Of a stretch of DNA of 64,000 nt, positions 1,890-60,810 are shown one piece after another. Under the pieces are notes generated by a model, which did no database searches, was not told the DNA's origin, and saw nothing but the letters and a program-made list of their open reading frames with translations. Made by a program: the position numbers and the translations under genes. Positions within the stretch are counted from its first letter, which is position 1; the number at the start of each line of letters is the position of its first letter. The stretch is taken from contig NC_084933.1 of the NCBI RefSeq assembly GCF_958298935.1, positions 13,809,001-13,873,000 of the forward strand, read 5' to 3'. This DNA is from Phragmites australis. Its lineage: Eukaryota; Streptophyta; Magnoliopsida; Poales; Poaceae.

Positions 1890-3310
1890 CTCAAAAGCAA
1901 TAGGATTTCTTGATTGTTGTACATAATGCGGTAAAATGAGCATTGATATTATTCCACATGTATAAGTTCAAGAGCTTAATAGAATGAAACCATTATACAT
2001 GAGTAGTAAACAGAATAATAGAAATTTTGTAACAACAGTAACCGGGATCATGTGTAAATTATGAACTAAATGGCAGACACAAATCTTTTGTGAAATTGCT
2101 CTCCGAAAAAGTATAACCGGGATCATGTGTAAATTATGTTCCTGCTCCCTAATTGTCCTAGCTAACAAGTATTTCATCAATTGGGCAATGCTCATAAGAT
2201 CTCAACTAGCAAAAATATAACATGAACTTAATTCTCAAGTTCTAAAGGCCTATCCTGGACAGTGCTGCAGAGCAACATTAGAGAACACAAAACTAGCACA
2301 GTAGAAGCAAGATAGCTGAGACAGAGATGAGATTGAACTAGAAATTGCAAAAAATAGTATTTTCATCTTGAACTAGGAATCCATCTAGAGCCAGATATAT
2401 GCAAAGTATACTGAGATCTCACTGCAACACTAATCCAAGGATAAGGTTAACATATAGCAAGCTGTCGACACAATTCAACAATTGTACCACGGTGTGCAAT
2501 CAAAATAGAACCACACACCACTTAGCCTCTAGGTACCACCAAATGCGACCAAACAACAAGGGAAACTACATGTATATGCTAGTGTACTCCGTGAACATGC
2601 CTAATCTCATAACAATTACAAATCATTGAGTATCTCATGCTGTCCAGAACATAGAAAGAGAGAAAACTAAAATACTCACAATAAAATTTGCTTAAAAGCA
2701 AAATCAATCGAGGCAAGACAAGACACAAAAGCTGTTGTCCCAGAAATCCTATTCGCCATCATTGTGTCAGTGAGGAAGATGGAGATACAAGGCCTTACCG
2801 CACCGTGTCGGTGCGTGTGGATGAGCCTCGATAATCGCAACTCCGATGGGCACTAATAACATAGCTCCACCACCAAATATCTTGCAGCTGCCAATCACCA
2901 AGCCAAAGCCCGAGCTCAAATCGGGTCAAGCACAGGAGGTGATCCCCAAACCGAAAGAGAACACAGTGAGAATCAAGAAGATGGAGGAGAGTTTTTCAAT
3001 CAACTTCCAAGGAAGAGGAAGAGGACCTACAAATAGAAGCAAAGACACCATCCAACCTCACCTGACCCCTAAATGGATTGGGGAGGTGGTTAAGCCGCCG
3101 CTCAAAGGCCACCGCCTATTCTCTCTCCCTAGTCTCTCTATTTTCCATTGCATGCCCTAGCTCATCTAAGTCCCAGCTCAAGTACCCCCAGCGCATGGGC
3201 CTGGGCAGCACAAAGGCTAGTGGGCTAGCCAATCCACATGAGAAAAAAAGAGGTCCAAGAAAATATTAAAATTTTTATTTTCCTCAACAGGTTGATGGTT
3301 AATCGGTTAA
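1890..3310. other. Unassigned AT-rich stretch beside the copia gag remnant
   Basis: Nothing here could be assigned to a gene. It probably includes the 5' untranslated part of the reversed copia element and older repeat sequence. A 25-bp direct repeat is present at 2039-2063 and 2114-2138 (core ACCGGGATCATGTGTAAATT). A frame at 2846-3160 translates to a lysine- and proline-rich peptide resembling no family I know, and no splice or promoter context supports it. Confidence 0.4.
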
Positions 3311-3728
3311 TTGATTATGACTTTCCATATTATATGAGAGGGGAAGAGACGGGGGACCAACTTTGATTGTGGATCATTTAATCGTATAAGAAATACGCTA
3401 GAGATCGTTCAGATCTGTCATAACTTATTTATTTTATAGGAGTATACACAATTGATTGTGACTTTTCATATTATAGGAGAGGGGAAGAGACCGGGGGACA
3501 ACTTTGATTATGGATAGTTTAACCATGTAAGATGTACGCTGGAGATTATTTGGATCTGCTATAACTCGTCTATTTTATAGGAGTATAAATAATTGATCGT
3601 GACTTTTCATATTATAGGATAGAGGAAGAGACAGAGAGAATTTTAATTATGGATTGTTTAATCATGTTAGATATATGTTGGAGATCGTTCAAATCTATCA
3701 TAATTTGTCTATTTTATAGGAGTATAAA
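3311..3728. repeat. Tandem repeat, about 140 bp, three copies
   Basis: Three consecutive units begin near 3311, 3451 and 3592. Each starts with TTGATYRTGACTTTYCATAT, passes through GAGGGGAAGAGAC (decayed in the third), then a TGGAGATCGTT-like segment, and ends with ATTTTATAGGAGTATA. The units are clearly diverged from one another, so the array is old. No coding frame runs through it. The copy count and period are by eye. Confidence 0.85.
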
Positions 3729-4330
3729 TGAGTACGCCCACAATTAGGAATGGATTAATGGACTTTGAAGATCTGTCGCTTGGTGCTGTTCATTTCTTGT
3801 CTATTTGCCGCCGTGGTCATGTGAAGATCGAGTCATTACTTCAATTTGAAGCTATTCATGAAACGAAAATGGATCTGTTTCGGAAGACAATCGACCGTCA
3901 TTTTCGTTAATTTGGCATTTTACAAAGACAAGAGTGTTTGACTAGCTAGCATGGGTTTTCTATGGCTGAGAAGACCTGGCGTGATGATACTAGAGTTAAT
4001 CATTATTATCTCTAGACTAGTAGACGTTGATAACTGAAGTGTGACGAACAGAAGCTTCGAGCACTAATTCGAAAATTCGGGTCTGCACCAGGTTTGATTA
4101 AACTTAGGGCAGCCAAGCAGGAAAAGAAAAAGAAATGTTGGACCTGGCTTCAAAACAGAGAGAAGTGATCCATCTGGGAAGACGGTCGCAAACTGCAGCC
4201 GACCCTATCGGTGTCCTCGAGAAAGAAAAAACTGCAACTCTACGCGAATTCTATCTGTGTACTCCTGCCGTGTCGAGATCCTTCCTTATCGTCCTGCTCG
4301 AGTCCTCGTAGGGACCAGACCAAGTTGAGC
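3729..4330. other. No recognisable gene
   Basis: This is low-copy-looking sequence between the tandem repeat and the first copy of the dispersed module. A 60-codon frame starts at 3728 on the last base of the tandem array, but no domain is recognisable and no homologous stretch was seen elsewhere in the window. Confidence 0.3.
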
Positions 4331-5535: not shown

Positions 5536-6480
5536 ATGGCGACTCCTTCCTCATCTGTCAGGACAACCATGACATCCTTGCTCGCCTTTCTGGTGACAGA
5601 GAAGCTCATGCGGAATAACCATCCGCTCTCGAGGGCTCAAGTTATGTCTCCTCTGTGAGGCACATAGTTGGCAGGTTACCTCGATGGCTTGATCAAGGCT
5701 CCACTGGTGACCCTCGTTGTCACCAAGGGAGAATGAATCAGAGAAGGTGCCAAACCCTGCCTATTCGCAATGGGTGGTGCAGGAGTAGCATGTTTTGAAC
5801 TACATGCTCGAGTCTCTTTCCCGAGAGATTCTCACCCAAGTTGTAGGTCTCACGACTGCATCTGAGATGTAGAAGGCCGTAGAAGGGATGCTTGTGTGTC
5901 AATCCCACGCACGCATGATAAACACGCGCATGGCGTTGGCCACCATGCAAAAGGGATCTATGATTGCCGTAGAATACATCGGCAAGATGAAAGCTTTAGT
6001 AGATGAGATGGTATCTGCAGAAAGAAACGTGATGATGAAGAACTTGTGTCATATATCCTTTTGGGACTCGACATTGAGTTCAACCCACTCGTGTCTGCAA
6101 TTGTAGTGCGCATGGAACCGATCTCCATGGGCGAACTGTATGCTCAATTGGTCGATTTCGAGCAGTGTATGGATCTTCTTCAGGGCAACAACTCGCAATC
6201 CTCTGTCAATGCCGCTTTGCACGACCGAGGCAATGGGAACATGCAACGACGTGGGCATGGTCATGGAAACGGCCCAGGACATGGAGGCAACTACAACAGC
6301 AAAGACACGTGACAAGGTGGCAATGGCAACTACTCCAACTCCGATGCACGACCTACTTGTTAGCTATGTGGCAAAATTGGCCATACAACAGTCAAGTGCT
6401 ACAAGAGGTTCGATCACTCCTTCGTGGGTGAAGAAAGAAGTGATGCATCAACTACTACCTCTCCTATGGCATCGACAGCA
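5536..6480 (+). pseudogene. Copia gag, decayed, with zinc knuckle
   Basis: The gag frame starts at ATG 5536 (MATPSSSVRTTMTS). It is broken by stops and at least two frameshifts, and is readable again at 6046-6310 as LGLDIEFNPLVSAIV and GELYAQLVDFEQCMDLLQG, typical of RE1-type gag. A glycine/histidine-rich stretch follows. A CCHC zinc knuckle lies at 6358-6399: C-stop-LCGKIGHTTVKC, where the second residue has become a TAG stop. Gag would package element RNA; this copy cannot. Confidence 0.75.
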
Positions 6481-6482
6481 AC

Positions 6483-7753
6483 TGGTACATTGACACATAC
6501 ACCATCGACCACATCACTAGCGAGCTTGACAAGCTGACTGTCCGTGACAAGTACACGAGCAACGATCAAGTTCACACTACAAGTGGCATAGGTATGGAAA
6601 TTAATCACATTGATCATTCCATTGTTCGCACCCCTAGTCATAATCTTGTCTTAAAGAATGTGCTTCATGTACCCAAAGCCAATAAAAATTTGGTTTATGT
6701 TAATCATCTTGTTATCGATAACCAATCTTTCTTGGAATTTCACCCTAATTATTTTTTAATCAAGGATCAAGCGACGAAGAGAACTCTTCTTCGAGGAAAG
6801 TGTGATGGAGGCCTTTATCCCTTGTCATCTATCCCGAATAAGCAAGCTTTTGGTGTCACCAAGCCTTCATCAACCAAGTGGCACAGTCGTTTAGGTCATA
6901 CTTCGTCGTCTATTGTTAGAGAGGTGCTTAGCAAAAATAATCTCCCAATCGCTAGTGAATCCAATAAAGAGTCTATTTGTGATGCTTGTCAAAAAGAGAA
7001 GAGTCATCAACTCCCTTATCTTAAATCATCGTGTGTGTCTAGTTTTCCCTTAGAACTTGTGTTCTCTGATAATTTGATGTATGGGGGCTGGCTCATAATT
7101 CTGATGAGAGACAGAAATGCTATGTCAGCTTCATTGATGATTTTAGTAAGTTCACTTAAATTTACTTGCTCAAACACAAGTCTGAAGTGTTTCAAAAATT
7201 CCATGAGTTTCAAAATCTTATTGAGAGACGCTTTAGTCGCAAAATCATTGCTATGCAAACATACTGGGGATGTGAGTATCAAAAGTTGAATACCTTCTTT
7301 ACACGCATAGGCATATCTCATCATGTTTCATGTCCCTATGTGCATCAACGAAATGGTTCCGCAGAATGTAAACATCGCTACATAGTTGAAGTTGGATTAT
7401 CTCTCCTTGCTCATGCATCTATACCTCTAAATTTCTAGGATGAAGCCTTCTTGGCTGCCACATACTTGATTAATTGTCTTCCTAGTAAAGCCATTGAGCA
7501 TGACACTCCCTTGGAACGCTTGTTCCATCAAAAATCGAATTACACATCTCTTCGTACTTTTGGGTGTGTTTGTTGGCCCAATCTTCATCGCTACAACACA
7601 CGCAAACTCCAGTTCCATTCCAAACAATGTGTTTTTCTTGGGTATAGTAATCTACACAAAGGTTTCAAGTGCCTTGGTTCTTCTACAGGTCGTGTTTATA
7701 TCTCCAGGGATGTAATCTTTGATGAAGATGTTTTTCCCTTTGTTCATTGCTAG
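6483..7753 (+). pseudogene. Copia protease and integrase, decayed
   Basis: The frame opens with WYIDTYTIDHITSELDKLTV. Family members have a D-[ST]-G-A protease site at this point; here it reads DTYTI, so the catalytic motif is lost. The GAG-pre-integrase segment follows (WHSRLGHTSSSIVREVL, then CDACQKEKSHQLPY). After a frameshift near 7080 come integrase core pieces (IDDFSKFT, QRNGSAECKHR, AATYLINCLPSKAI, LRTFGCVCWPNLHRY, KCVFLGYS-like QCVFLGYSNLHKGFKCL) ending with VYISRDVIFDEDVFPF. Stops occur at 7436 and elsewhere. No reverse transcriptase follows. Confidence 0.85.
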
Positions 7754-18231: not shown

Positions 18232-18276
18232 TAAAATATCTCCCTTAATCTGTGATGGACTCTTTTTTTATGTGAG

Positions 18277-19697
18277 ATGTTTCAATCACATTTTAAACCT
18301 TGTTGCTCAAGATGGTTTGAAAAAATTGCATCAGCTATTTCAAATATCAAAAATACAATTACAATTGTGAAGAATTCTCCATTACAATTTGAGGAGTTTA
18401 AGAAGTGTGCATCAGAATGTAACTTGGATATCTCAAAGGGTCTCACCTTGGATGTTCCAACTAGGTGGTACTCTATGTATATCATGTTAAGGAGTGCTAT
18501 TTATTATCAAGAAGCTTTGGTAGGCTTTTCCTTAGGCAAGAAAAGAAGTATGGGAAATATAAACCAACTAAGGCAAATTGGGCTAGTGCAACATCAATTT
18601 ATGCATGCTTGAAGCCATTTTTTGATGCTACTGAGCTCTTCTCTAGAGCTTCATATCCAACTGCAAATCTGTTCTTCAGAAAGTTTTGTCAAATTAAGCT
18701 GGCAATTGCATAATGGTGTGTTAATTCTGATGAAGTAATTAAGGCTATGGCAATTTCCATGCAAATTAAATATAATAAGTATTGGGATAAGCCCAACATA
18801 GCACTATCTGCAGCAACCTTTCTGGATCCTAGATACAAGACAAAGTTGGTAGAATATTTTGCAAAAAGAATCTACCCTACAAATGCTACACAAGAGTTTG
18901 ATAAGTTTATTAGTGTTGTGAACCAATTGTTGGAAGCTTATGCCTCTACTTCAAATGCAACTTCAACAAAGACAACTGGTGCTATTGTGCAATCTCAACT
19001 AGATGTTCTAGACAAGTTAGATGATGGTAATGATCTCGATATTGAGAACTTCTTGCATAACAGCAGCGAGTCAAGCAAGGGTATCAAATTTGAGTTGGAA
19101 GTGTACATGGAGCAACCGTTAGTGAAGTGGACCGCAAAAGATGGAACATTTGATATTTTGTCATGGTGGAAGCTCAAACAAGCTGAACTCCCTATTCTCT
19201 TCTGACTTGCTCATGATGTATTAGCTATTCAAGTGTCGACGGTTGCTTTGGAGTCAGCATTCAGTGCTGGTGGACAGGTTGTTGACCCATTTCACACCCG
19301 TCTACATGATGAGATTGTGCAAGGTTTAACTTGTACTAAAGACTGGACTGCAGCATCTAGAAAAGGTAACATCTTAGTTTTGCTTGAATGGTTTGTCTAT
19401 TATGTGAGAGAATATCTATAGCTAATTAATCTTTTACTAATTCTCAGGTGAAACCATTGCATCTGTGATGACCGAGTTGGACATGGAGGGTCTTGAGCGG
19501 CATTTCGCAAGCTTGATGGAAACAATTTGCTTTTTCTTATATAACTATGTAGTTGTACATCATTGAGAGGAAAACATTAGAATAATTTATTCTTGTCTTT
19601 ACATATTGTAGGGCCATCAAAGAAGGAGGATACAATTTCGGATGATATGGAGGAGAAGGAGGACATGATGGAGACGGACAACGAAATGGAGGAATGA
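18277..19697 (+). pseudogene. hAT (RICESLEEPER-type) transposase C-terminal half
   Basis: hAT transposases cut and join element ends in the nucleus. Readable pieces in order: LQFEEFKKCASECNLD and LTLDVPTRWYSMYIML (18390-18490; family DVPTRWNSTYxML); after a frameshift, YGKYKPTKANWAS and LKPFFDATELFSRASYPTA (18550-18670); ALSAATFLDPRYKTKLVEYF (18797-18860); and the C-terminal hAT dimerisation domain FDILSWWK, then LAIQVSTVALESAFSAGG and VVDPFHTRLHDEIVQGL (19150-19330). Two later exons (19447-19540 and 19612-19697) carry the tail. A stop at 19203, a stop at 18712 and a frameshift near 18530 inactivate it. The BED zinc finger and N-terminal domain are missing. Confidence 0.9.
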
Positions 19698-27554: not shown

Positions 27555-27970
27555 AGCTGTATGTATGAGCATATTTATTTTTGTTTTTCAATGAATTAGA
27601 AAATTTAGTCATGATATTAAGGTATATAGCAAACTTTAATTATATTTTTTATATTTTAATTAATTAGTAAGCTTTAATATAGGAACTTTAGGTATGAGCA
27701 TATTTATGATTGATTTTTAATGAATTAAAAAAATTAGTCATGATATTTAGGTATGTAGCAAGCTCTTTTATATTTTAATTAATTAGCATGTCTAATATGA
27801 AAACTTTATGTATGAGCGTATTTTAATTTTTAATGAATTAGAAAATCTCACCATGATATTTAGGTATCTAGCAAGATACAATTATATTTTTTATATTTTA
27901 TTTAATTGCAAGTTCTAACATACAAACTTTATGTATGAGCGTATTTATTTTTTATTTTTACTTAATTAGT
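27555..27970. repeat. AT-rich tandem repeat, about 120 bp, in the CACTA leader
   Basis: Units begin with TATGAGCRTATTTA near 27565, 27694, 27811 and 27933. Each runs through TTTTTAATGAATTAGAAAA, GATATTTAGGTAT and TATTTTAATTAATTAG. There are about three and a half diverged copies with spacing 119-129 bp. It lies in the presumed first intron or leader. Confidence 0.75.
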
Positions 27971-28747: not shown

Positions 28748-31700
28748 TGTCACGTCCTGAAATCCGTAATTGTGTGTTTTAATCCTAAAACATGCAATTT
28801 CAGCTTCATGTTCCAGTTTGGGTCACTGGAGCACCTCACTTTGAATCAATGAGGTGGGAGAAGGAAAAACTAAGAGAAATAAAAGAACTAGAAGCAAGTC
28901 TGGACTTTCCTCTAGGTAAATAGGGCCCACTTGGGTGGAAAATATCTCTCTATAGGTAGGCAACAACACTCTCTCTCCCCCTAAAAAGCTTGCCCATACG
29001 TACTACTCACCCACTCCACCAGATAAGGCTTTTTGAGGAAGCAAGTTGGAGTTGGCTGTCTCTCACTCTTTCTCTTAGGCTCCCTTTTTCCCCTTTGGAT
29101 CCCTACCTCTGGGAGCAAGATCAAGGTACGTATGTGGTACTCACGTGACCACCAGCTCAAGGACTACTCGTCCATCCAATTCGTTTTCAGTTTCCCCGAA
29201 GGAATTCGAGCTGGTTCTGAACTTGTTTGGTGTTCTTTGGGTGAAGCAAGGAAGCAGCAGTTTTTCCTCTCTTCTCCAAGCCATTTTCCATCGTTTCCTC
29301 CTTCAACTGGCGGTCACCAATCTCAGCAAAGGACCTTGGGTGAGTCTGCTAGGCTCCCATGGCAAGTATGCTTATTTTTGGTTGGATAGATCTTGAATCT
29401 GGAACTAGGGTTGCAAAGTTCTTCAGTCTGAGAACAAATGAGGATTTATGTGGATTTGAGTTAGGAATCATGTTGCTAGATGGTTGAGCAAAGTCTAGAT
29501 CCTGTACACCCTTCTAGTCATTTTTACCTTTGATTTAGAGAGACTCCCAGGTTAGTTTAGCCTAGTTTTTCCCTTCGTAATAGCTGCTATTCTGGAGCTG
29601 CACGACCCTGATTCTACTGTAGCGCCCAAGTACTGTTCATCTGAGCACCCGGGTACTGTTCACCCGAGCACTGTTCACCGAGCACACACAGTTCACCCGA
29701 GCACCTGGGGGTACTGTTCACCCCGAGCACTCCTGGATACTGTTCACCAGAGCACCGAGCACCCCGAGCACCCGGGTACTGTTCACCGAGCACAAGGATA
29801 CTGTTCATCCCCTGGGTACTGTTCACCGAGCACCTCGGGGGTACTGTTCACCGAGCACCCGGGGTACTGTTCATTGAGCACGCCGAGTGCTCCCGGGGAC
29901 TGTTCACTGAGCACCTCGGGTACTGTTTACCGAGCACCCCCGGTTACTATTCACCCGAGCACCCGGATACCGTTCGCCGCGAGCACTCCGGGTACTGTTT
30001 ATCCCGAGTACCCTGCGAGTACTGTTCATCCCGGCACCCTGAGCACGGTTTATCAGGCTTTCCTGATAGCTGATAGCTTGTAAAATTCGTAGTTAATTCG
30101 TACGAACTCCAAATTTTATGAGACCACTTGGAAAATTCTGGTTTGGATAGTGTGATCTAGGAAAAGTATTGTTATGTATTGTGGAGCATATTTTTCTTAT
30201 ATGGTCGTATTTCATACATGCTCATTACATTGCACGCGTTGCTCTCTATAGTGAACGCCGATCCGTCGATCCCGGAGGCCGTGGGCGATCGTGAGGCGTC
30301 CCACCTTTCTGATCCAGGGCAGCAAGGCAAGCATCGTTCATATTGCACCGTGTCTACTTGAAAATTTAATATGTTATCTACGCTTATGTATACATTGCAT
30401 GTGTCGGGTACTGAGTTGGGTAGAACCTATGCCGATGCATTATCCCATTTCGGTCACATGTCATGTGTTGTTCCTAGGAGCCTAGTGGTGTCATCGAGGT
30501 CTAATTTTAGTTCGCTATGCTTAGTGGTACTTAGGCTTTCCGGTAGAAGTCGACGACGGCGTCCACCGTTGTCGCGAGCCTAGGACTTATTACTTGTTCA
30601 CACTTATGGTTGTGTTGATGATGAGTCGGTTTGGTGAGTGGTGAGTTGAGACGAGGTGTGGGCGGTGTTAGGGGTGTCATCTGCTCACGAGGAGTCCTCA
30701 GGCAGTTCGGGGAGGGAACCCGAACACCGTAGACCGCTTGCACCGGTTAAGCACCGATCATCGGTGTAGTCGGCTTTAGCACATACCTTACTCACCACAT
30801 GCTGATATAATGGTAGGCGAGCTGATTACCTTCGCAGACGTGGTCATGTGGGCCTCGTCATAGACGGTGTGAGTCCGGTTTGAGTCCGGGCTTTTAGCGG
30901 TATTAGTTTGCTCGGGGAGTAGTTCTAATACCGCCTCGCCGAGCTATGGTTGATCCACATGGTTGGGCCTGGTTGGGAAAGGTTGTCACGGGTACCCCCT
31001 TGTGTGCATCTTAGCGGGTGGCACGAGCCGTATGGTCCCTGTGTCGTGTGGGTCCAGGAGTATCCCCCTGCAGGGTGTATAACCAGTTCGAACTGCCGCG
31101 CTCTCGGTCATGAGCATCGCTATCGCTTATCTCCATCGAGCGACCATGTTTTGGTCGTAGAGTTTCGATGTGGGTTGTGGCATGGTTGGATTGGGGTGGT
31201 TTGGTCGGTATGTGGTTGGTGGTTTGGGGGGGGATGGTTTGCTTTTATACACTTGTTGTTCATATATCTGTTCTGATCAGTTGGTTGGCAGGGTTTGAGT
31301 CGGTGGTTGGTTAAGTCAGTTGCTTACACCTAGAGTCTAGGTTGCTTACCGCTTAATGAACTTAAACATGTCTTAATCCTTGCTACAGCTTTAAATGCAT
31401 GATCCTTGGAGTCGAGAATATATATACTCATACTGTGTAAGACTTGCTAGTACCTACGTACTAAGGGGTGCTGCCTTTAAGTTGCTTTCAGGTTCGCAGG
31501 TTGGCGAGGAAGAGGCAGTGTTCGGCTACTTTGTGCCTGCCGATCAGGGTGGCGGGCAGGAGTAGCACCTTCTACTCCGAACTCCGGCGCTTTTGGTATG
31601 GAGCCTAAGGGCATACGGCTCCATACTCTTTTGTTGTATAGGTTTTTCTTCCGCTGCATAGTTGTTGTTGTTCCTCTTTTGTTGTAAATTGTGGAAGCAG

Positions 31701-36923: not shown

Positions 36924-38281
36924 TCACGGCGCCGGAGCGGCCACGGCGGCGTCATCGGCGTCGAGCCACCGGTCCATGGGAGTGCACTCCGCCTTGTGCG
37001 CCATCTTCCAGTGCAGCGCCTGGCACGCGCGCGAGCAGTAGTTCACCACGCCGCACACCGAGCACCGCCGGAACTCGTGCCGCCTCGTCTCCGGCCGCCC
37101 GCACAGAGCCTGCGAGCACAGGCGCAGGCCCCCGCCGGTTTCTTCGTCCGCTGATGCGGTCCCGGCGCCGGAGCCGGCGACAGCGACGGAGGAGGCTACC
37201 AGCGGCCGCGACGCGAACCAGTCCACCAGGAACCGGTTGGCCGCGTGCGTCTCGCCGGCCGCGGCGCGGCACCCGAAGTCGCTCAGCAGGCACGAGTGCC
37301 GCCGCGACGCTTTGCCGCCGTTGTTCCCGGTGTTGCCGGCGCGGAGCAGCGAGGCCGACGCGGTGACCGCGGCGGCGAGCTCGCGCGTGTTGGCCTGGAT
37401 GAGGAGGCGGCGCCCGTCGAGCACGGACCGGCGCACGCCGTAGCCGTCCTGCAGGCAGTGCCCGAGCTCGCGGAGCGCGTCCACGTGGCCCAGCGACGCC
37501 GCGCGCGCGCACAGCGCGGCGCCCGCACGGAGGTCGCGATCATCCTTGCTGCCGCCGCTGCCGTTGAACTGGATGACAGCCAACGAGTACAGCGCCTCCC
37601 GGTGGCCACCCACCGCCGCCGCCGCCATCAGCGCCGCCCCCGACCCCCGTCTCCCCAGGCAGTAGAACCGGATCTGCGCCGCACGAGCTCGATCAGCACG
37701 ATCGCCAAGGCATACAATACAGCGCAAAGGAGACGACAAGATTCTCGTATCAATCGTTGGTGTTCTTACCATGCCAAGAAGGTAGCATGCCTCGAGGTTG
37801 CCGGCGTCCGCGCAACGCTGCAAGAACCGGTGAGCCTCGTCCGACCAGGCCTTTGACGGCACGGCGAGACACCTCGGCGACGCCCTCGCGAGCACCACCC
37901 TGCTCTGCCCAAGCTCCCTGAATCTCTTGCACCTGCACGCACAAATCCAAACAACTCCCCGTTAGAATTCCATCTCCATCCCGCAACTATTTCTCAGATC
38001 ACTCAACCGAACCAAACAGCACGTAACGGGCACAAGACGTACGTGAGCATGGCGCCGGCGAGGTCGGCCGGCGAGCCGGCGGACGCCGCGACGTCGGCCA
38101 GTATGGACACCACCAGATCGTCAGGCAGCTCCTCGAACATGTCTCCCAGGCCGCCGCACCCCGCAGGAGCGCCGGAAACCGCCAGCGACCCCTCCGCCGC
38201 AGTCCGGCGCTTCTTCCGGCGGTGCACATCCGGCCCCTCGCCCGCGTGGCAGGAGTAGCACGCTCCGCGCCTCGTCCTCAT
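36924..38281 (-). CDS. F-box / Sel1-repeat / MYND zinc-finger protein (At1g67340-like)
   Basis: Three exons on the minus strand: 38281-38043, 37932-37770 and 37673-36924. The introns (37933-38042, 110 bp; 37674-37769, 96 bp) have GT-AG borders and keep the frame, giving 1152 nt and a 383-residue protein. The second intron is a multiple of three with no stop, so a naive frame reads through it. The start MRTRRGACY is the conserved family N-terminus. Residues 51-80 form the F-box (ELPDDLVVSILADVAA, then AMLTCKRFRELG across intron 1). Sel1-type helices lie around residues 120-215 (RFLQRCADAGNLEACYLLGM; CARAASLGHVDALRELGHCL). The C-terminus has a MYND-type zinc finger at about 338-364 with CSVC, NYCSRAC and HKAEC. 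The family is thought to act as SCF-type adaptors, inferred from the F-box; the target is unknown. No frameshift or internal stop is seen. This is the only gene here that looks intact. Confidence 0.93.
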
Positions 38282-49950: not shown

Positions 49951-50745
49951 TTTGATAGAGCACAAGTTGTTTGTGCGACCAAAAGCGCAACCAGTAAAGC
50001 AAAAAGCGCATTTATTCGCAGCCAACCAGAAGGAAGCGCTTCGTTAGGAGATCAACAAGCTCCTAGAAGCAGGCTTCATCCAGGAGGTGCAGTACCTAAA
50101 ATGGCTAGCTAACCCAGTCATGGTCCGGAAGCACAATGGCAAGTGGAGAATATGCATTGACTTCACCGACCTTAATAAGGCGTGCCCAAAGGACCTTTTC
50201 CCTCTTCTCCGAACCGACTAGCTAGTTGACTCAACGACTGGCATTGATCTGTTATGTTTCTTAGATGCTCGATCAGGGTACCATTAAATTAGTATGTTTA
50301 GGGAAGATGAGGAAAAGACGGCTTTTATTACACCCTTTGGGGTCTTTTGCTATATAAAATTGTCTTTTGGCTTAAAAAGTGCCGATGCCACTTACCAACG
50401 GTGTATTCAACTCCTTCTCCGACCACAGCTCAGAAGAAACATCGAGGCATACGTGGACGATGTGGTCATCAAAATCAAGACCAAGACAGACCTGGTCGCA
50501 GACCTTCAAGGAAGGTTGAAGTACCGCATGAAGCTGAACTCGGAGAAGTGTACGTTCGGGGTTCCGTTAGGGAAGTTGCTTGGATTCCTCATGTCTCATC
50601 AAAGGATAGAGGCGAATCCTGACAAGATCAGGGCCATCGACCAGATGAGATCCCCGACTAGGTTACATGAGGTTCAGAAACTAACAGGATGCATTGCTAC
50701 TCTAAGCAGGCTCATCTCAAGTCTAGGTTCTGGATATACCAAGAG
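49951..50745 (+). pseudogene. Gypsy reverse transcriptase, decayed
   Basis: Motifs in order: EINKLLEAGFIQEVQY and NGKWRICIDFTDLNKACPKD (50065-50195); FLDARSGYH with a TAA stop, then ISMFREDEEKTAFITPFGVF (50258-50345); CYIKLSFGLKSADATYQRC (50347-50405, family MPFGLKNAGATYQR); and EAYVDDVVIKIKT with the catalytic YVDD box (50444-50490). Then LNSEKCTFGV, KLLGFLMSHQRIEANPDKIR and LTGCIATLSRLISSLG. The frame runs directly into the plastid-like insert. Internal stops (50046, 50218, 50286) inactivate it. Confidence 0.85.
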
Positions 50746-50810
50746 AGATCTACAATCTAATGAGGCTACTATGAAATATTTACTCATTACAACGAAACCT
50801 AGAAATCAAT
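50746..50810 (+). other. ndhB: Plastid ndhB-like fragment inserted in gypsy pol
   Basis: Between the RT text ending LISSLG and the resumption at GLSLFKLLKKNNHF there is foreign sequence of about 220 bp. Its first 60 bases read SGYTKRDLQSNEATMKYLL, which is a segment of the plastid NAD(P)H dehydrogenase subunit NdhB (known as SGYTKRDLRSNEATMKYLL). The direction is the same as the gypsy pol. It is far too short to function and should be a nuclear plastid DNA insertion (NUPT). Identification is from memory of the NdhB sequence; one residue differs. Confidence 0.75.
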
Positions 50811-50965
50811 CACTGATCCCTAGGGATTCTTGATTGGAGCTGAGCTAACCATAGCCCAAAGTCGAAGGATATCAATTGCTAGAACCCTCGATAAAAGAAT
50901 CGAATAAAAAAAATCTATATTATGCTCACTCAAGGAAAGTAGATGTAGATAGGGGCTGGAGAAGG
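50811..50965. other. Rest of the foreign insert in gypsy pol, source unknown
   Basis: After TTTACTCAT the resemblance to ndhB stops. The next 150 bases are AT-rich, unlike the surrounding GC-rich pol. They contain a short open frame (LIGAELTIAQSRRISIARTL) I cannot identify. It could be a second organellar piece joined end to end, or filler. Gypsy sequence resumes at about 50966. Confidence 0.45.
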
Positions 50966-55335: not shown

Positions 55336-58300
55336 ATGAGATTCCTTTTCTGGAATGTCAGGGGACTGGTTAAAACAGTCAGAAGAGCTCAATTGAAAGA
55401 GATTATTAAGCAAGAGAGATTAGATGGAATTGGTCTTCAAGAGACCATGAAGGCTGATTTTGATAACAAGGAGTTATCTCAGCTAGTTGGTAATATGAAC
55501 TTTTTCTGGGTCTGGCTACCTCCCATGGGGCTCTCTGGGGATATTCTTGTGGGCATCAAGGGAGATGCTCTTGAAGTGGAAGATCATTGGGTGGGGGAGT
55601 TTTGTATCAAGGTGATCTTGAGAGATAGAAGATTCCATTTTAGATGGGGTATGGTTACAGTATATGAGCCTGCCAATCATTATTTATCAAATGAGTTTAT
55701 CAACGAGTTGCAGGGGATTTGTGACAAGGAGTCACTTCCTCTTGTTTTTGGGGGTGATTTTAACTTGATTAGATCCAAGGAGGATATTAATACGGGTAAT
55801 ATCAACCCAAGACTTGTTGATTTGTTTAATGGTTTCATTGATCTTAATCATCTTAGTGAGCTGAGAAGGAAATGGGGGAGGTTCACTTGGACTAATAAGC
55901 AGAAAAGCTTGGTTATGGTAAATTTGGACAGAGTGTTGGTATATATTGATCGGGAATCCAAATACCCTCTTAGTATTGTAAATAGTCTGACTAGGGTTGG
56001 TTCAGATCACACTCCTTTGTGTTGAACTTGGGAGATAAGCATATGTTTAGGCCAAAGTATTTCTTTTTTGAGAAACAGTGGCTGCTGCAGAGGGGTTTCA
56101 CATATAATTTGATTCACAAATAGGGAGAGTGGAAGGAAAGAATGCCAAATCAAATTTACTCCTTGGACAAATGGCATGGGTGCCTGTCTAAAGCTAGGCA
56201 ATTTCTCAGAGGGTGGCAGTTAGCATAGATTGGTGATAATAAAAAAAAGGAGAAAAGAAATTATTGTGCAGTTGAGTGAGCTTGATCAAAGAGCAGAACA
56301 TGGTGGTCTTATGGCTGTTGATTGGGGCCTTAGATATAAATTGGAAGAAGGAATGGAACATTTATACCTCATGGATGAGATATACTTGCAATAGAGGGGT
56401 GGCCAAGATTGGATCTTGCAGGGAGATAACAATACTGGGTTTTTTCATCAATGTGCTAGTGGTAGAAGAAGAAAGTGTTCCATTTTCACTTTGGAAACTG
56501 AGAATGGGTTGATTTCAGAGCAAGGTGAGTTGGAAAATTTTGTTGCGAGTTTCTATAAAAATCTGTTTGGTTCCAATGATAAGGATCTCATTCATATCAG
56601 AGAAACTTTTTGGGGCATGTGGCAAAGGATTCAGGACCTTGATGGGGATGTTCTGATAAGAGAGATTACTGAAGATGAGATGAAAATGGTGGTGTTTCAC
56701 ATGAAGTTAGATACTGCTCCTGGCCCAAATGGTTTTAGGGTTTCTTTCTTCAAAAATTTATGGGATGTAATAAAAAGTGATATCATGAATATGGTGAGGG
56801 ATTTTTACAAAGGTGTTCTTGATATTAGAAGATTAAACTATGGGGTGATCACTTTGCTTCCTAAGGTTAAGTATGCAACTAACATCAAGCAGTTCATGCC
56901 TATTTGTTTTGCTAAATGTTGATTACAAAATGTTTACCGAGTTGAGACAGACATAATTAGTCCTTTGGCTGATCAAATTATCAAAAAAGAGCAAGCTGTT
57001 TTTATTAAAGGAAGAAACATTTTGGAAGGAGTTGTGATTCTTCATGAGGTTTTACATGAACTCAAGTAGAGCATAAGACCATGTGTCATTATGAAATTTG
57101 ATTTTGAGAAGGCATATGATAAAGTAAAATGAAACTTTTTGTAGAAAGTTTTGGAGAGAAAAGGTTCCCCTGCACTTTGGATCAAATGGGTTATGCAATA
57201 TGTCCAAAAAGACTATGTCTGCATAAATATAAATGGTCAGAGAAGTTCTTATTTTAAGACCTATCAAGGGTTAAGACAAGGGGATCCATTGTCCCCAATT
57301 CTTTCAATCTGGTGGTAGACATTCTAGTGGAACTTATTGATAAGGCTGTTGATAAAGGGTTAATCTCTAGGGTGGTGAACCATTTGATTTTAAGGGGTCT
57401 GTCACATATACAGTATGCTGATGATACTGTCATCATAGTTGATGCGAGTGATCAGTCCATTTTAAACTTGAAGTTGATCTTATATTATTTTGAGTGGTTT
57501 TCTGGTCTCAACATTAATTTCCATAAAAGTGAGGTGTTAGTTTTTGGGTTTGATCAGGAGAGAAAGGAAAACATTGCTAAAATGTTGAATTGTAAGTTGG
57601 GAGTGCTTCCTCTCAGCTATCTAGGTATTTATATTTCAGGATGGCCCCTTGGAAGGGCAAACATATGTCTTCTGGGGGAGAATTAATCCTGACCAATTCT
57701 TGTTTGAGTAGTCTTCCCACTCATACTATGGGCTTCTATCTTCTACCAGCAGGGGTGCATGACAAGATGGATTCTATCAGAGCTAATTTCTTCTGGCAAG
57801 ATGCTGATGGCAAGATGGATTCTATCAGGGCTAATTTCTTCTGGCAAGATGCTGAAGATAAATTTAAATACTATATGGTTAAATGGGAGGCAGTGTGTAG
57901 ACCTAAAGAGTTTGGGGGTCTAGGTATTGCAAACTCAGCCTTTGAATAAGTGTTTGTTGATGAAGTGGATTTGGAAGATTATTAAGAATAGTGAGGACAC
58001 TTGGTGTAAAATCCTTAGAGCCAAATATATAGCTATTGGTCAGTTTTTCAACTCCAAGAAGAGAGGCTCTTCTCAATTCTGGCAAGGTTTACATAAGGTT
58101 AAATATCTGTTTAAGTGGAGGGCTTATTACAAGGTTAATAGGGGGACAAGGTAGCTGAAAAGATACTTGGCTTGGTGATGCTCCTATTTATATCCAATAT
58201 CCTGAGCTGTTTAAATTCAGTGGTGATCCAGATGCCCTTGTGGAGGATTGTGTCATGAATAATAATTGAAAGATTGAATTCAAAAGAAGTTTAAATTAGT

Positions 58301-59227: not shown

Positions 59228-59345
59228 ACGCACGCTAATATCTTACTACATAAAAAAAATCATTTTTATCAATATAACTTTGGCCGGATTGGTATGCAAA
59301 CCTGAGCTGAGAGGAGATAAGATGGCATCAATGGCAACTAAACCG

Positions 59346-60802
59346 GGGAATTTTTTTTATTTTAGTCTTTTTAAAACTAATATTTTAATAATAGCCTGTC
59401 GAAACCTAAATTTTTAGGAATTAGTCCCTTTTGTCACGCCAAAGTGTTTGACGTGACTCCCCAACTTAGTCACGTCATATTCATTAGCGTGACTAAAATA
59501 GCCACGCTGACGGAAACCCTGACACCTTTACACGTAGATTCGACGTGGCAGCCTGGTTGGCGTGACTCAGGCAAACAGTATTTTCGTGGATAAACAGTGT
59601 TTTCAGCGGTTTCAATTATTTCCTTTCCGCTTTCTCTATTTGAGTAGTGGGGTTGCCGTACTCTAAAATTCATGAACCTTTTTCTGTATGTCCTATAATT
59701 CATGATGAATCCATTTTAAAAGGATTCACCTCAATACCCATCTAAGTTTTAAAATAAAAAAACTCCAAAAATGGTTACTTTTAGAAATTCTAGTAATTTT
59801 AAGGCCTCAAATAAATTCCCAAAAATCTGAGAAAATTCACTAATATTCCTCTCATGTGGCGTAATAATTTCTAAAATTATTTCCAATCCTAGGTTACTTG
59901 GTGAAAAAGTGAGTTCCTTTGCAATGCTCCATTTATATACATTTTTATCATTTCATACTATTTAGCCTTGTAAACGCCCTCTAAATAATTAGTAATTATG
60001 TTCGATTTTCCTCAAAAATTTTCCAGCGCTTGATGCAACATGTAAAGGTCCTATTTGCAAACATGCACATCGGATAGAGTCATAGAATTTGAATTATTCT
60101 TGATGTTTCAAGAATAATTCAAATTCTATGACTCTATCCGATGTGCATGTTTGCAAATAGGACCTTTACATGTTGCATCAAGCGCTGGAAAATTTTTGAG
60201 GAAAATCGAACATAATTACTAATTATTTAGAGGGCGTTTACAAGGCTAAATAGTATGAAATGATAAAAATGTATATAAATGGAGCATTGCAAAGGAACTC
60301 ACTTTTTCACCAAGTAACCTAGGATTGGAAATAATTTTAGAAATTATTACGCCACATGAGAGGAATATTAGTGAATTTTCTCAGATTTTTGGGAATTTAT
60401 TTGAGGCCTTAAAATTACTAGAATTTCTAAAAGTAACCATTTTTGGAGTTTTTTTATTTTAAAACTTAGATGGGTATTGAGGTGAATCCTTTTAAAATGG
60501 ATTCATCATGAATTATAGGACATACGGAAAAAATTTCATGAATTTTAGAGTACGGCAACCCCACTACTCAAATAGAGAAAGCGGAAAGAAAATAATTGAA
60601 ACCGCTGAAAACACTGTTCATCCGCAAAAACAATGTTTCCGCCAGAGTGGCTATTTTGTAACGCCAATGAATACGGCGTGACTAAGTTAGGAGTCACGCC
60701 AGACACTCTGGCGTGATAAAAAAGGCTAGTTTCTGATAATTTAGGTTTCGACGGGTTATTATTAAAATATTAGTTTTAAAAAGACTAAAATAAAAAAAAG
60801 TC
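59346..60802. mobile_element. Giant inverted-repeat (foldback/hairpin) element
   Basis: The whole element is a palindrome centred at 60105/60106 with a 4-nt loop (60104-60107). Arm 59686-60103 and arm 60108-60525 are perfectly complementary at every base I compared line by line (about 418 bp). Outside this the arms continue to the ends with mismatches and one gap of about 60 bp (left arm 59515-59580 has no partner). The ends read GGGAATTTTTTTTATTTTAG and, reverse-complemented, GACTTTTTTTTATTTTAG. The octamer CTAAACCG flanks both sides (59338-59345 and 60803-60810) in direct orientation, as a target duplication would. There is no coding frame. Outer arms carry repeated GTCACGCC / GGCGTGAC words. 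An RNA across it would fold into a very long duplex. Confidence 0.93.
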
Positions 60803-60810
60803 CTAAACCG

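Follow-up and report, generated by a model that had tools for sequence, protein, structure and literature searches.

A recent half-over-half copying event as the probable origin of a long, nearly perfect palindrome in a foldback-type DNA transposon of Phragmites australis

Among the closest described systems is the Galileo transposon of Drosophila, in which 38 of 170 copies have the structure TIR1-F1-F1-TIR2 (the 2RT type); in the sections of that study cited here, the authors propose that one terminal inverted repeat (TIR) is repaired using the other as the template (PMC3573991). For Galileo of Drosophila willistoni, the cited sections describe target-site duplications (TSDs) of 7 or 8 bp, TIR ends that are more conserved than the remainder, and three copies in which repeats, insertions or non-TIR sequence lengthen the TIRs, and they also mention the 8-bp TSD of the P element (PMC4168063). 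In plants, Mutator-like elements (MULEs) have been reported, in the excerpts used here, to incorporate acquired DNA into their extended TIRs; their TSD is given as 9-11 bp in the cited part of one source (PMC3310237), and 8-11 bp is accepted in that of another (PMC3903597).

Here we describe a palindromic element within a 64-kb stretch of Phragmites australis DNA (the window), which is best read, with a probability of roughly 0.65, as a non-autonomous foldback-type DNA transposon with an 8-bp TSD, one half of which was recently copied over the other to give the order TIR1-F1-F1-TIR2. The segments 59686-60103 and 60108-60525 are exact reverse complements of each other, so that arms of 418 bp flank a spacer of sequence TGTT; the coordinates of the perfect arms and 4-nt loop given in an earlier note on this DNA were thus reproduced exactly. 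That note had also traced diverged arms out to both ends, and the imperfect arms do reach 59346-60802, for an element size of 1.46 kb. Its parts, from left to right, are:

59338..59345, + strand: left copy of the TSD, CTAAACCG, a motif present only twice in the window, at the palindrome ends
59346..59592, + strand: TIR1, the left outer repeat; 59351-59393 exact against the right end, remainder diverged
59514..59572, + strand: stretch of 59 bp present in the left arm only (arm alignment), with AAAC at its start and AAAC directly after it
59593..60103, + strand: left inner arm, 511 bp; 4 mismatches against the right inner arm, none of them in 59686-60103
60104..60107, strand not applicable: central spacer TGTT, 4 nt, between the exact arms
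60108..60618, - strand: right inner arm, reverse complement of 59593-60103
60619..60802, - strand: TIR2, the right outer repeat; 60757-60799 exact against the left end
60803..60810, + strand: right copy of the TSD, CTAAACCG, the second of the two occurrences in the window

Exact inverted repeats of at least 16 bp with arm starts at most 6 kb apart were counted across the whole window, and the four longest (418, 54, 43 and 29 bp) all fall within the palindromic element; the next longest, outside it, are CT/GA simple repeats of 28 bp. Ungapped, the extended arm pair 59573-60103/60108-60638 agrees at 98% over 531 bp, the outer pair 59347-59460/60690-60803 at 88% over 114 bp, and the pair 59460-59497/60654-60691 at 84% over 38 bp. 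Given 29 mismatches in 689 columns, the chance of none falling in the inner 418 is 6.8e-13, and a clean run as long as the one observed arose in 0 of 20,000 permutations; the palindrome is far beyond a chance match. The reported 60-bp gap is real and one-sided, but its length is 59 bp (59514-59572). Mismatched outer arms and a perfect centre are both seen as described, but the outermost 43 bp are exact as well, and arm identity therefore shows no simple fall-off outwards. The AAAC-bounded 59-bp stretch has the appearance expected if the right arm had lost it by microhomology deletion, or if the left arm had gained it by insertion.

The window is grass nuclear DNA. An F-box/MYND frame (At1g67340-like) at 36927-37961 on the minus strand matches the Pfam domains TPR_27 and zf-MYND; among the best 120 of 1233 listed relatives (7994 candidates scored), the closest is a Phragmites australis F-box protein, 90% identical over 97% of the query, and the other named top matches are also from grasses. 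Much of the remaining window consists of transposon remains, recognised by domain matches:

6444-7286: copia-type gag/pol (domain match)
18256-19202, + strand: hAT transposase fragment with RNase-H and dimerisation domains
50288-50830: reverse transcriptase (domain match)
about 55.3-58 kb: LINE with endonuclease and reverse-transcriptase domains (domain matches, disrupted frames)

The LINE lies upstream of the palindrome, its two domains broken into stop-bounded pieces in different frames, in keeping with the decayed LINE that had been placed next to it. Within this LINE, at 57759-57855, a 48-bp unit occurs twice (95% matches) and an open frame runs in the stretch. A snoZ247 match (RF00321, 51.6 bits) lies at 6025-6163, just upstream of the copia fragment. 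Tandem arrays occur at 3308-3729 (141-bp units, 3 copies) and at 27560-27969 (AT-rich units of about 129 bp, 3.3 copies); at 29646-30039 there is an array of short GC-rich units around GAGCACCCGGGGTACTGTTCACCC, whose long open frames look like a by-product of the repeat.

The ends of the palindrome have the features of a mobile element. CTAAACCG, an exact 8-bp direct repeat, abuts both ends and is absent elsewhere in the window on either strand, as anticipated by the suggestion of a mobile-element-like unit with a target-site duplication. By itself, such an 8-bp match between two specified positions is only weak evidence. TIRs are present at both ends, the outer ones being identical in 153 of 178 aligned columns, and by structure the 8-bp duplication together with the TIRs points to the insertion of a DNA transposon. 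The outermost arms, 59351-59393 and 60757-60799, are exact over 43 bp, and finding the 40 outermost columns clean within an outer part that averages 14% divergence has a probability of 0.001. Such clean extremities are as expected if transposition selected the ends; since they sit inside a diverged outer TIR, the TIR divergence would have arisen in the element lineage, with the ends selected for mobility.

The longest stop-free stretch of the element in six frames is 81 codons, and the element thus appears to have no transposase gene of its own. A blastn search of the 64-kb window found no other copy of it, and exact element patterns gave 0 matches in viral contigs and prokaryote genomes, where a plant element is not expected. 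The outer TIRs (59433-59492 and 60658-60716) contain repeated 24-bp units, GTCACGCC...GGCGTGA(C), about 36 bp apart, each of which is itself a small inverted repeat. GRCGTGA/TCACGYC motifs number 7 in the element and 9 elsewhere in the window (16 in total, as raw counts); as candidate transposase-binding sites, the array of these motifs in the outer TIRs is suggestive only.

The divergence of the arms is layered. Aligned from the ends inwards, they give 689 columns with 29 mismatches (24 transitions and 5 transversions), distributed as 0 of 40 columns at 59354-59393, 25 of 138 (18%) beyond 59393 to 59592, 4 of 93 at 59593-59685 and 0 of 418 in the core. Outside 59592 the count is 25/178 and inside it 4/511 (Fisher p 4.7e-12); the inner arms were equalised much later than the outer ones, which upholds the earlier idea of a "second, more recent inversion-duplication event". 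Uniform decay was rejected, as one rate cannot yield 14% divergence in the outer part and less than 1% in the inner. Of the columns in which at least one arm has a C or a G, 21 of 75 carry transitions in the outer part, against 0 of 125 within the 418-bp core (p 1.5e-10), and cytosine deamination or low GC as the cause of the clean core was rejected on this comparison. The observed/expected ratio of CpG is 1.45 in the left outer TIR, 1.46 in the right and 0.55 in the core, a contrast suggesting separate histories for the core and the ends.

Three of the four inner mismatches (59677, 59678 and 59685) lie within 9 bp. With all mismatches retained, the best single step is at 59685; if this cluster is counted as one event, it is at 59592. 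The position of the step is accordingly uncertain between the two, and the 418-bp core is not clearly the entire young part. All four inner mismatches fall in the outer 93 of the 511 columns (p 0.001), which counts against a single step at 59592, as it is not predicted there unless the cluster is one event. Either position would leave a sharp boundary inside TIR-like sequence. In the alignment of the arms, homology continued across the step into the outer TIR, and the insertion of an independent palindromic element into an older one was rejected on that account; inspection by eye of the inner boundary revealed no duplicated target.

The origin that we favour, copying of one half over the other, would have proceeded as follows. 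In the ancestor, the two TIRs would already have differed from one another, apart from an extreme ~43 bp kept constant, presumably as sequence needed by a transposase supplied from elsewhere. In a single recent event of repair or template switching, a break or stalled fork within the element would have been repaired with the opposite half as template. Copying may have started in TIR sequence common to both ends, around 59593-59685, with synthesis proceeding inwards through the unique internal sequence and joining 4 nt past its mirror image. The former centre would thereby have been overwritten and TIR1-F1-F1-TIR2 produced, the copied half being made up of internal sequence and some of the terminal repeat; we infer that the inner part was formerly single-copy internal sequence.

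With 1.3e-8 per site per year taken as the grass substitution rate, the outer part would be about 6 My old, the inner about 0.3 My or less, and the core at most near 0.28 My. These absolute ages depend on that rate and on neutral evolution, and can be no more reliable than either. The present insertion may itself be young, or only its centre may have been renewed, the copying falling before or after insertion; because identity of the TSD at 8 of 8 positions is expected 3 times in 10 at 14% divergence, both remain compatible with the duplication.

The rival that survives best holds that arm-to-arm conversion, or mismatch correction in extruded hairpins, is still going on, an option also raised in the earlier note; the centre would then stay identical as the outer arms drifted apart, and the palindrome itself may be old. 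A spacer in the two-nucleotide range favours extrusion from the centre, and the succession of a perfect centre, an intermediate zone (4/93) and an outer part at 14% would suit such a process. A smooth gradient from the centre outwards, however, fits worse than one step (BIC 211.9 vs 204.0) and was rejected, and the exact outermost 43 bp are not explained by a process that works outwards from the centre. One copying event suffices; lasting conversion is possible, not needed, and we consider it unlikely as the main explanation. Its specific form, a plant palindrome with near-zero spacer in which correction of extruded hairpins keeps the centre perfect and restores identity outwards as the outer repeats drift, is less probable still; if true, the layers of 418 bp, 93 bp and outer sequence would be a fossil of the usual reach of extrusion.

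A sequencing or assembly artefact, in which polishing or filling between the arms, or a fold-back chimeric read, made near-identical inner arms falsely exact, is improbable. Polishing is able to homogenise near-identical repeats, and the equal part does stop where the arms become distinguishable. But a fold-back read would mirror the flanks, and the inverted repeat halts at the two CTAAACCG copies; 25 substitutions and the 59-bp indel separate the outer arms; and polishing might erase a few differences between the inner arms but could not create the palindrome.

Plant hairpin RNAs give rise to siRNAs that silence transposons, which is established plant biology. Folding of 59354-60802 on the plus strand gave one long stem at -1103.9 kcal/mol (a single sequence, without shuffles); the predicted stem of nearly 700 bp would follow from the palindrome itself and is no evidence for function. 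If transcribed, the element would probably yield hairpin RNA and siRNAs that help to silence it and its kin. In the cited part of a maize study, regions with miRNA-like structure had more small RNAs mapped to them and more methylation (PMC10760457), and on the general grounds found in the cited parts of this study and of a review on MITE-type hairpins (PMC10004981), siRNA output is likely. That the locus is a proto-MIRNA or trans-silencing hairpin, as the earlier note proposed, and is preserved for the action of its small RNAs on other sequences, is very improbable: the fold would suit it, and in the cited portion of the review perfect MITE-type hairpins serve as substrates for siRNAs and can, by decay, become MIRNA genes (PMC10004981), but no Rfam family reaches gathering score within the element (the single match in the window is the snoRNA at 6025-6163), the inner arm has no convincing target in the window, and there is no sign of selection keeping the hairpin.

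Against the window, blastn with the inner arm gave at best a match of 22 bp (E 0.008), which is not convincing. Gapped local alignment of the inner arm gave a top score of 280, and 272 at another tile, against 227-271 in 12 shuffles; the score-280 alignment was rejected as homology, being gappy and lying over the AT-rich tandem array at 27560-27969. The inner arm gives the impression of AT-rich grass LTR sequence; its derivation from a retrotransposon LTR found no support, with no convincing match in the window.

With regard to superfamily, an 8-bp TSD accompanied by short TIRs characterises hAT elements, and duplications of 8 bp are made by P elements too. An 8-bp TSD is seen in the element, short TIRs are not, and blastn found no kin of the palindrome at 18714-19202, in the window's hAT transposase fragment. 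The outer TIR, at about 184-247 bp, is within the 100-500 bp typical of MULEs, and reaches about 700 bp with the extension. As stated in the cited parts of the two sources, the exact 8-bp TSD falls within the wider MULE definition (PMC3903597) and outside the narrower (PMC3310237). The element can be filed only as a putative non-autonomous foldback-type TIR element, with MULE, hAT or P left as candidate superfamilies.

Palindromes with near-zero spacer are expected to be unstable. A natural one in a plant opens the question of how such structures form and how long they last. Long perfect hairpin loci have also been put forward as starting points for siRNA silencing and for MIRNA genes, and this locus is a dated-looking example of a DNA transposon becoming a long perfect hairpin, with outer decay, exact ends and a recent centre combined. 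If relatives with a single-copy centre exist, the copying event could be reconstructed directly. Overall, the element, a single locus, looks like a good instance of a rearrangement of known type and not a new system.

The comparison with described systems is drawn from the cited parts of each source. Like MITE hairpins, the element carries TIRs, is non-coding and would, once transcribed, form near-perfect dsRNA; it differs in being ten times longer than the first MITE treated there (128 bp; PMC10004981). With plant MULEs it shares long TIRs, non-autonomy and occurrence in grasses, whereas those MULEs carry tandem TIRs, unlike the palindrome (PMC3310237, PMC3903597). Its order of parts is that of the 2RT type of Galileo: in the grass element, inner arms identical at 507 of 511 positions lie inside outer TIRs identical at 153 of 178. 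As in Galileo, internal sequence beside one TIR is duplicated and inverted and the TIRs are lengthened; in contrast, the outer TIRs within one Galileo copy are 98-100% alike, those of the grass element are 14% diverged, and its spacer is only 4 nt (PMC3573991). Galileo is an insect transposon of the P superfamily, and the grass element is likened to it by mechanism and architecture, not by kinship (PMC3573991). With Galileo of Drosophila willistoni, compared for architecture across different hosts, it shares the 8-bp TSD, the extended TIRs and the conserved ends (PMC4168063).
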